From contig JABGPV010000027.1 of assembly GCA_018644785.1 (NCBI GenBank), positions 1 through 29,853 of the forward strand: a DNA stretch of 29,853 nucleotides, written 5' to 3'. The number at the start of each line of letters is the position of its first letter. Positions within the stretch are counted from its first letter, which is position 1. Below are positions 25,878 through 28,964 of the stretch, one piece after another. A program made the translations under genes and the position numbers. The notes under the pieces were generated by a model, which worked only from the letters and a program-made list of their open reading frames with translations, had not been told where the DNA came from and searched no databases. The stretch comes from Deltaproteobacteria bacterium (GTDB taxonomy: Bacteria; Desulfobacterota; DSM-4660; Desulfatiglandales; Desulfatiglandaceae).

Positions 25878-27192
<1,315 letters not shown>

Positions 27193-27330: not shown

Positions 27331-27369
27331 GCTTTGGCTCGATTAAAATAATTATATTCAGCCAAAACA
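27331..27369 (-). repeat. 39-bp repeat R3, inverted relative to R1/R2
   Basis: Read on the minus strand it starts TGTTTTGGC and ends GAGCCAAAGC, with an A/T-rich centre (AATATAATTATTTTAAT). It aligns without gaps to R2 and R1 on the other side of the ATPase gene, most strongly in the TTTTGGC and GCCAAA ends. It overlaps the 14-bp perfect palindrome GCCAAAGCTTTGGC (27325-27338). Confidence 0.65.
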
Positions 27370-27393
27370 CATCTCGGTAGCCCGGTTTTGGCT
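27360..27393 (-). repeat. Inverted repeat at the 3' end of the ATPase gene
   Basis: AGCCAAAAC (27360-27368) and GTTTTGGCT (27385-27393) form a 9-bp perfect stem with a 16-nt loop. The right arm begins a degenerate further copy of the 39-bp repeat (GTTTTGGCTG ... TTTTAAT) running into the gene end. No T-run follows on the minus strand, so terminator function is doubtful. Confidence 0.5.
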
Positions 27394-27406
27394 GCGAATA
27401 AACCTT

Positions 27407-28864
27407 TTAATAAAGATCCTCCAATGTCAGCGTATTAGCCACCAGTTCTTTGGCATAGGCATTGTTTGTAACCCCAAACGTAGTTACCATGGTCAGGAAA
27501 ATGTTTTTTCCGGTTCCGGTAACCCGTCGAAAAACGTCCAGTTTACGCCGCAGGTCCTTGGCGTATTTTTTGTCAATGGTAAACTCCATTTCAGAATACT
27601 TCATTTCACACAGGTTGATTGTATCGTCTCGCCGATCAATCAACAGGTCAATCTGCGCGCCGGGAATATTGGAATTTGCAGAAGATTGATAACGCCATGG
27701 AGCTTCTGTTGTTTCAACGCTCGCGATTCCCAGGGCCGTTTTTAGCCGTAGCGCATGTTTCAAACAAAGGCCCTCAAAAGCATATCCAGCCCAAGCTCTT
27801 CGACGCGGCGCATTTTGCTGAGTTAACCAGTATCCATCCCCGGGCGACCTCTTTCCAAGTCTTCCGACCCAATCCAGAAAAAACAGAGAATATTCATCGG
27901 AAAGCCGGTAAAGCGCATCGTTTGCATTTTTGCCGAAAGGGGTCTGGGGTAGAATAAAGCCGGATTCCTCCAACTCCTCGAGACGATGGCTCGCGCTACC
28001 TCCGGATCGCAGACCGATCGACCGCAGGATTTCGGTACGTGTCAATCCCTGACGCTTTTTGGCAAGCGTTTTGATGATCTTCTGATGCTGCTCACTTTCA
28101 TCGAAAAGCGAAGTGTACAGTCTATGGAACTCATTGCGCAGAAGTCCCTGAGAGGAAAAGCATGTCTTGTCGATAATCTGAGCAGCCGACAAACCCGGTT
28201 CCGATTGTTTCAGGTAATGTGGAACCCCTCCCATGGCCATATAGAGTTCCACAATCTGGGCCCGTGTCAGATCCACACCCTGAGACTGAAGGAAGGCCTC
28301 TGTTTCGTGTAGTGTGAAGGGGAGGAGGCGTATCTGGCGTGTCAGACGGTTATGCAGCCCTCCCCTGGCAGTCACGATGTTTTGGATCATCCAGGATGCT
28401 GCCGAGCCGCAAACCACCATGATAAAATCGTTTTTCCGCGAGCCCCAGCTGTTCCAAAAGTGCTCTAAACTGGAGAGGAATTTTGAGCGCGGTGTGTTCA
28501 GCCAAGGCAATTCGTCAAAAAATACAATTCGTTTCCCCGTTTCCTTTTTGAGTATCGGCGATTCAAGAAATTGTTCCAACTGCCTAAACGCTTCAGCCCA
28601 TGAAGCGGGTCTCTGCGGTTGGATGCCCATTCCAATGGCCTTGCCAAGGGCCTGGGCGAAGTTGTCCAGCTGCTCTTTCAGGGCCGCGCCATGTTTCCCT
28701 ATGATCTCGAAGCAGATCTCGGCGTCAAAAAACTCCCTGACCAAGTGGGTTTTCCCGACACGACGTCGTCCGTAAACCGCAACAAATTCAGGATCCGACG
28801 ATTTGGAGGCGAGCCCCAAGATCCCCTTCTCCACCTTACGCCCTATGATTCGCTCTAAGCTCAT
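27407..28864 (-). CDS. AAA ATPase with C-terminal DUF234/PD-(D/E)XK nuclease-like domain
   Basis: 485 residues. Walker A GRRRVGKT is at 32-39 and Walker B VFFDELP at 114-120 (D117, E118); the CGSAASW strand follows as in the ATPase_2 (PF01637) family. A winged-helix region lies at about 265-320 (KKRQGLTRTEILRSIG). The C-terminal region has IDLLID with D406 and then CEMKYS with E420 and K422, the D-x13-ExK pattern of PD-(D/E)XK nucleases, as in the DUF234 family. The cellular function is unknown; proposals for relatives include mobile, defence or toxin-like roles. It is surrounded by 39-bp repeats (R1, R2 upstream, R3 downstream) and inserted between icd and aconitase. No strong ribosome site precedes ATG 28864. 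Confidence 0.85.
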   Translation of the reverse strand: MSLERIIGRKVEKGILGLASKSSDPEFVAVYGRRRVGKTHLVREFFDAEICFEIIGKHGAALKEQLDNFAQALGKAIGMGIQPQRPASWAEAFRQLEQFLESPILKKETGKRIVFFDELPWLNTPRSKFLSSLEHFWNSWGSRKNDFIMVVCGSAASWMIQNIVTARGGLHNRLTRQIRLLPFTLHETEAFLQSQGVDLTRAQIVELYMAMGGVPHYLKQSEPGLSAAQIIDKTCFSSQGLLRNEFHRLYTSLFDESEQHQKIIKTLAKKRQGLTRTEILRSIGLRSGGSASHRLEELEESGFILPQTPFGKNANDALYRLSDEYSLFFLDWVGRLGKRSPGDGYWLTQQNAPRRRAWAGYAFEGLCLKHALRLKTALGIASVETTEAPWRYQSSANSNIPGAQIDLLIDRRDDTINLCEMKYSEMEFTIDKKYAKDLRRKLDVFRRVTGTGKNIFLTMVTTFGVTNNAYAKELVANTLTLEDLY

Positions 28865-28871
28865 AATACCG

Positions 28872-28910
28872 TATTTTGGCCCAATTTAATGAGCCATGTC
28901 AAGCCAAAAG
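28872..28910 (+). repeat. 39-bp repeat R1
   Basis: Starts TATTTTGGC and ends AAGCCAAAAG, so its ends are inverted copies of each other (TTTTGGC/GCCAAAA). It lies 8 nt upstream of the ATPase start, in the promoter/leader region, and on the minus strand contains a TTGACA (28902-28897). 54 bp start to start from R2. Confidence 0.65.
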
Positions 28911-28925
28911 TAAAATCGAAGACCC

Positions 28926-28964
28926 TGTTTTGGCCAATTATAATGATTTATATCAAGCCGAAAC
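28926..28964 (+). repeat. 39-bp repeat R2
   Basis: Starts TGTTTTGGC and ends AAGCCGAAAC, aligned without gaps to R1 and R3. Its centre contains TATAAT on both strands, so it could include a -10 box for the ATPase gene or for the aconitase side. Confidence 0.65.

Follow-up and report, generated by a model that had tools for sequence, protein, structure and literature searches.

A candidate single-gene cassette: a PDC-S27-type ATPase–nuclease gene and the palindromes that accompany it

The stretch analysed here, called the window throughout, comprises the 29,853 nucleotides at positions 1 to 29,853 of contig JABGPV010000027.1 from a Deltaproteobacteria bacterium, and it carries a gene for an ATPase–winged helix–PD-(D/E)XK nuclease of the PDC-S27 family with palindromes on both sides. 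Among relatives of this gene, such sites accompany the gene and are regularly spaced a short distance upstream of it, and at a given place genomes have the whole unit of gene and sites, lack it, or retain a single palindrome. Our preferred reading, to which we assign a probability of about 0.56, is that the gene is a single-gene cassette with its own candidate binding sites, probably autoregulated, which is gained whole and lost by recombination between its flanking sites, and that the window's copy is one of a very large family of cassettes built as palindrome lattice, gene, and palindrome lattice; any binding, regulation, cleavage, or self-mobilisation we infer from the sequences. An earlier note on this DNA, made from its letters alone, had described the gene and its repeats as a self-contained module that separates icd from aconitase, the repeats serving as binding sites for autoregulation, as cleavage targets, or as ends of a mobile unit.

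Results

The window protein is predicted to consist of an ATPase domain (residues about 1-225), a winged helix (about 258-304), and a PD-(D/E)XK nuclease domain (about 346-485). The Walker-type ATPase and the D406/E420-x-K422 nuclease-like domain that the earlier note had read from the translation were both recovered, the former as a match to Pfam PF01637 (E 5e-12) with the Walker A motif, Walker B motif, and fold of an ATPase_2/STAND-like AAA+ domain, and the latter as a D ... ExK signature with its neighbouring strands and a nuclease fold, D406 and E420 being invariant and K422 conserved at 90% or more in an alignment of 64 sequences. The winged helix, absent from that description, matches helix-turn-helix (HTH) families, for which the window protein itself is a weak match (lowest E-value 0.0013, short of the curated threshold). 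The PADLOC profile of PDC-S27 (PDLC04984) covers residues 4-485 of 485 with an E-value of 4.7e-189, and by sequence the protein is a PDC-S27 member, that is, a predicted phage-defence candidate. The 11 Pfam families matching it with an E-value of 0.1 or lower are ATPase and HTH families and weak, unrelated ones; none is a transposase, and neither is any of the 25 families listed, out of 44, for the 64 homologs.

Two palindromes, R1 and R2, lie upstream of the gene and a third, R3, downstream; a pattern search and a repeat finder agree on the positions previously given for them, and the degenerate extra copy reported near the gene end corresponds to one half-site in register with R3 (Table 1). 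A 36-base pattern derived from R1-R3, allowing up to 3 mismatches, matched 27332-27367 (reverse strand) and 28874-28909 and 28928-28963 (forward strand), with no match elsewhere in the window and 0 in 100 shuffles, and the 16-base half-site TTTTGGCYNRATATAA, also with up to 3 mismatches, gave 8 matches against 2.84 expected (top of 100 shuffles, 7), 7 of them falling in R1, R2, R3, and the degenerate copy. Because both patterns were made from the copies, they show confinement within the window and carry no independent significance. Independently, the repeat finder paired R3 with R2 over 42 nt at 76% complementarity, and the inverted match between the upstream and downstream sides scored 15, exceeding the 9 reached in 20 shuffles. 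The half-sites alternate in direction, with core steps on the gene strand of 34, 20, and 34 bp upstream and 19 and 35 bp downstream. The general palindrome score of the 220 bases upstream was 7, which did not exceed the 10 of 20 shuffles, and the fixed threshold of the family survey registered 0 upstream palindromes in the window, R1 and R2 being too imperfect, and 2 downstream.

Table 1. Positions of the gene, its repeats, and a candidate promoter in the window
Feature	Position	Strand	Basis or detail
ATPase + winged helix + PD-(D/E)XK gene, PDC-S27 family, 485 aa	27407..28864	-	profile, fold, alignment
R1, gene-proximal upstream palindrome, imperfect	28872..28910	.	half-sites 28874-28889 (+), 28894-28909 (-)
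R2, distal upstream palindrome, imperfect	28926..28964	.	half-sites 28928-28943 (+), 28948-28963 (-)
R3, downstream palindrome	27331..27369	.	half-sites 27332-27347 (+), 27352-27367 (-)
Single extra half-site just past the stop codon, in R3 register (step 19)	27386..27401	+	half-site search
Sigma-70-like promoter, TTGACA-18-CAAAAT, inside R1	28873..28902	-	consensus match; 1 found, 0.5 expected

The arrangement was surveyed in 119 stretches (37 genome loci, 1 viral contig, 80 paralog stretches drawn from genomes with up to 39 family matches, and the window), 108 loci being kept once 8 duplicates, L038 (whose frame the script left unresolved), and the short-flanked L025 and L134 had been dropped. 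At a fixed threshold, an upstream palindrome was found in 99 of these loci against 15 of 132 controls and a downstream palindrome in 61 against 24 of 132; the upstream palindrome beat 20 shuffles in 79 loci (controls, 10/90), and a repeat common to both flanks was present in 62 (controls, 11/90), such that repeats do stand beside homologous ATPase genes, as a module of gene and repeats predicts. Distances between palindrome centres peaked at 24-29 bp (78/223, about 27 bp) and at 51-56 bp (35/223, about 54 bp), compared with 3/20 and 0/20 for control palindromes, and these controls together with the regular spacing rule out chance repeats. Both half-site steps seen in the window, 34-35 and 18-20 bp, occur in 8 of 13 loci measured for TTTGGC-like sites, namely the window, L001, L003, L008, L015, and L030 from Bacteroidota, and L002 and L004 from Chlorobiaceae. 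Since the steps recur across differing sites, the spacing is kept while the sequence changes in most of these 13 loci; site sequences also differ between paralogs. The sister PDC-S01-like ATPases (L249-L268) have upstream palindromes in 10/20 and shared flanking repeats in 12/20 cases, so the trait extends beyond PDC-S27 and these genes are unusable as a negative control. Their palindromes are shorter and of another geometry (e.g. AGTAATGGACATTACCGTAATGGCCATTACT upstream of L254). Among plasmid homologs (9 of the 20 listed matches, 50 shuffles each), the upstream palindrome exceeded shuffles in four, from Segatella, Butyrivibrio, Emticicia, and Phocaeicola (start guessed), and none of the nine had repeats common to both flanks.

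Gain and loss were followed for 13 elements taken from genome G014: the flanks of nine were compared with 60 genomes of its genus group, scoring five candidates in each genome, and those of four with 12 genomes; this evidence comes entirely from rumen Bacteroidales-type genomes, and the figures are those among the matches listed, with places read individually. Solo palindromes were found for at least five of the 13 elements, with both flanks conserved in at least three (L079, L075, and L092). For example, L079 is occupied in G135, G150, and G127 (with a damaged 5' end in the latter) and is a solo palindrome in G136, where the joined flanks of the occupied locus equal the solo sequence in 413/442 columns without a gap. 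L075 is reduced to a solo palindrome between conserved flanks in G137, by reading against G098, to a half-site in G136, and to nothing in G144 (right flank), and L092, occupied in G127 and G098, is solo with both flanks conserved and the array inverted in G123 (L288). Relative to the occupied loci, the inversion at L288 took place at the palindromes and took along some bases of the right flank. Solo sites with one conserved flank were found for L088 (right flank, G098) and L090 (left flank, G127 and G098), the latter directly adjoined by a solo palindrome of the L078 type; at L277 (G127) and L279 (G098), the L090-type and L078-type palindromes stand side by side and neither gene is there.

Empty sites with two flanks were found for at least four of the 13 elements: L082 (in G127, G144, and G137), L084 (in at least nine relatives, L212-L220, plus G145 and G016), L092 (in G131), and L083 (in G127, left flank in pieces). 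One-flank empty sites were seen for L072 in G136 and for L088 in G127 and G136, and L076, L077, L078, and L085 gave one-sided flank matches only, among the matches listed. The unit is thus missing at the same site in relatives from another lineage, and the role of the repeats as ends of a unit, taken as a unit of gain and loss, is supported in these relatives. The occupied copy of L082 carries the 22-bp TTTTTGCYTTGGTTTTTCGGTG on both sides, which is single in the empty site. The L083 ortholog in G098 (L270) has lost about 600 bases of the gene by internal deletion and kept both flanks. At the L084 site in G150 (L222), a different ATPase gene lies in the place of the cassette, a possible hot spot, and four empty sites (L271, L247, L280, and L243) lie, as judged by eye, directly 3' of a terminator-like hairpin of the upstream gene.

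In 15 of 37 homologous pairs (70-97% identity), the end of DNA homology lay no more than 15 bp from the outer upstream palindrome, and between L072 and L130 homology runs from -160 to +119 with palindromes from -160 to +106, leaving little beyond the two palindromes. Two-sided occupied copies keep palindromes on both sides. The ratio of nonsynonymous to synonymous substitution (dN/dS) was 0.04-0.11 in 12/12 pairs, indicating purifying selection, and none of the 60 most similar locus pairs (at least 64% protein identity) came from one genome.

Ten genomes were scanned for the palindromes of two paralogs, L072 and L079, allowing up to 3 mismatches. Five of them have 3-4 copies each of the L072 site, all beside the gene, and the other five have 0, whereas the L079 site is present in 7/10 genomes: in six it lies beside the gene, and in G136 a single copy marks the orthologous position, where the gene is missing; reversed control patterns gave no matches in the ten genomes. 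For these two paralogs the repeats are unspread across the ten genomes, a dispersed repeat family is ruled out, and the notion of a module with its own repeats is borne out by gene-confined sites as well as by the homologous loci. In viral contigs, three exact patterns matched 0, 0, and 1 contig, the one carrying the gene itself (L038/L289), which, as the patterns were exact only, is weak evidence against phage-borne target sites. A sequence of about 50 bp in the left flank of L083 (query 1471-1521) matches dozens of places and is an unrelated dispersed repeat.

TAnnTTTG, which we take to be the Bacteroidota -7 box, lies within 110 bp of the start codon in 84 of 92 Bacteroidota/Chlorobi-type loci with an upstream palindrome, where shuffles expect 7.7. 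Elsewhere in the window, the isocitrate dehydrogenase gene icd (25878-27192, reverse strand) reads as two frames that overlap (25878-26819 and 26770-27192), the break coinciding with a C homopolymer near 26810 and reflecting either a frameshift or a sequencing error. As to relatives of the window, a search with citrate synthase points to Desulfobacterota, with Desulfobacteraceae and Desulfobacterales among the named matches. No aconitase of more than 64% identity was found in the phylum of L012 (188 genomes, E 1e-90), and thus no close relative of the window.

Discussion

These data suggest how a cassette of this kind might work. The protein would assemble as an ORC-like (origin recognition complex) or STAND-like oligomer on its own sites, contacting them with the winged helix, and binding beside the promoter would set the level of the protein itself; the combination of an ORC/STAND-like ATPase and a winged helix with a cognate lattice close upstream of the gene makes oligomer binding and self-control the most likely option. 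Because 53-54 bp, the length of the full repeat, corresponds to roughly five turns of the helix, equivalent sites would lie on one face of the DNA; the argument was rejected for neighbouring centres, whose 27-bp distance amounts to roughly two and a half turns. The ATPase–nuclease may be held ready, or in check, until a trigger, probably phage infection, releases its activity. Flanking copies in direct repeat would let the gene drop out by recombination and leave a solo site, and sites retaining one intact palindrome are the expected product of such an event. The unit would reach new places whole, with the possible 22-bp duplication at L082 as the sole clue on entry.

Several observations weigh against this reading. 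Of the 84 loci with the -7 box, 66 have a core promoter that overlaps a palindrome, against 70 expected for random placement in the same stretch; the sites surround the promoter because palindromes fill the upstream region, so that the overlap adds no evidence, was rejected as proof of operators, and, being at chance level, weakens the reading. The autoregulation sites proposed in the earlier note are plausible by position and gain nothing from the promoter overlap. The 108 loci include orthologs, so that their counts are not independent trials, and 46 of them have no repeat common to the two flanks, which means that bracketing is not obligatory. Homology ended inside or beyond the palindrome in 22 of the 37 pairs, some of them syntenic, in a count that is uncontrolled. 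The motif and the 13 loci used for the half-site steps were picked by eye, and among these loci three have the short step alone (L010 and L011 from Saprospiraceae and L006 from Planctomycetes) and two have neither (L005 and L009). Site similarity followed protein identity with partial correlations of 0.14 for the ATPase, 0.14 for the winged helix, and -0.05 for the nuclease, a weak signal as to which domain sets site specificity. No upstream palindrome was found in the Malaciobacter and Desulfosarcina plasmid copies or in any of the three haloarchaeal relatives (26-27% identity), and no duplication was seen at L084, the 22-bp one at L082 being the sole one among the elements that could be resolved.

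A plain autoregulated defence gene is a serious, if rather unlikely, alternative: the palindromes would be operators only, the downstream copies would stem from tandem duplication or act as a looping operator, and presence and absence would be the outcome of ordinary gain and loss at hot spots. Sites close upstream with a promoter box nearby, the loci that share no flank repeats, the strong purifying selection, the empty sites that often lie just past a terminator-like hairpin, and the different ATPase gene at the L084 site in one relative all agree with it, but it leaves the direct copies on both sides of more than half of the loci unexplained by itself, and it fits poorly with the L072/L130 homology that spans two palindromes and little more and with the chance-level promoter overlap. 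That the palindromes are unrelated to the gene, as dispersed REP-like or miniature inverted-repeat transposable element (MITE)-like repeats or terminators located there by chance, seems very improbable indeed; although hairpin-like palindromes are common in intergenic DNA and these genomes do contain one short dispersed repeat, the regular spacing and the controls speak against it, and the cognate-only sites of L072 and L079 already contradict it for these two.

It is also quite improbable that the ATPase–nuclease cuts at or beside the palindromes and moves the unit itself, as would a homing element or transposon that lacks a classical transposase. The empty and solo sites in relatives, the direct duplication at the ends of L082, and the pairing of a nuclease with an AAA+ partner, which is the logic of Tn7-type elements, would be in agreement with self-mobilisation. 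However, solo sites keep one whole palindrome, as by homologous deletion and unlike end-cutting excision, the most similar locus pairs include none within one genome, the palindromes of L072 and L079 stay with the gene or its orthologous site in the ten genomes searched, and no duplication was seen at L084. Unlike with homing endonucleases, the two-sided occupied sites keep their palindromes, and this also leaves the proposal of cleavage targets without support. The preferred reading, a cassette gained whole and lost through its flanking sites, bears likeness to several known arrangements. A gene flanked by its own palindromes recalls REP/RAYT systems, which have a tyrosine transposase, RAYT, and dispersed REPs, whereas the sites of two paralogs here are confined to the gene and showed no dispersal in 10 genomes. 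Single genes with a palindromic attC site at the edge are known from integron cassettes, where excision could leave one site, but the cassettes described here are scattered over many contigs. Solo long terminal repeats (LTRs), likewise, are single repeats left after recombination between flanking direct repeats, whereas the unit here is the ATPase–nuclease open reading frame only, with repeats of about 50-100 bp. In contrast to a homing endonuclease gene, the unit leaves the recognition site undisrupted, if the palindrome is that site, and in contrast to a classical transposon or insertion sequence, it has no transposase domain among the Pfam families listed.

At the protein level, the AAA+ and winged helix fold of the window protein matches that of ORC/Cdc6 initiators. 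Archaeal Orc1/Cdc6 proteins bind inverted repeats, the origin boxes, whereas the sites here flank the protein's own gene, and we know of no ORC with a nuclease. The archaeal Walker-type ATPases SSO1545 (2fna) and PABY2304 (2qen) match residues 1-332 of the model, the nuclease domain of the window protein lying outside. PDC-S27 and PDC-S01 are described as abundant, mostly unvalidated defence candidates combining an ATPase with PD-(D/E)XK (PMC12988326, PMC13356809), experimental validation is pending for most PDCs (PMC12988326), and one survey counts 3,503 archaeal and 4,562 bacterial PDC-S27 (PMC13356809, PMC12988326). The window protein shares with these families, defined in PADLOC through guilt by embedding, a full-length profile match and the fusion of an ATPase to PD-(D/E)XK stated in a 2026 paper (PMC12988326), whereas the cognate palindromes, lattice, and solo sites seen here are unmentioned in the accessible parts of their descriptions. 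Flanking cognate palindromes are likewise unmentioned for these genes in the accessible text of the literature searched, including PMC12988326, PMC13356809, and PMC4158269, with subscription papers mostly outside that search.

A more far-reaching proposal, which we consider unlikely, is that PDC-S27 and PDC-S01-like genes are unrecognised self-addressed cassettes whose private lattices (period 54 bp, or a different geometry in the sister family) are read by their own ORC-like ATPase–nuclease, that they are present in tens of versions with differing sites per genome (39 matches in one), and that the lattice serves self-control as well as gain, loss, and inversion, which would make them a new kind of mobile defence element. 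The repeats of the window are no local oddity, as the arrangement recurs in relatives of the gene. The palindrome lattice offers a concrete DNA substrate and a ready-made binding assay for defence candidates that are mostly unvalidated, together with a way of seeing how such genes come and go, and dozens of paralogs with differing sites in one cell would offer a naturally occurring range of DNA-binding specificities built on a single scaffold.
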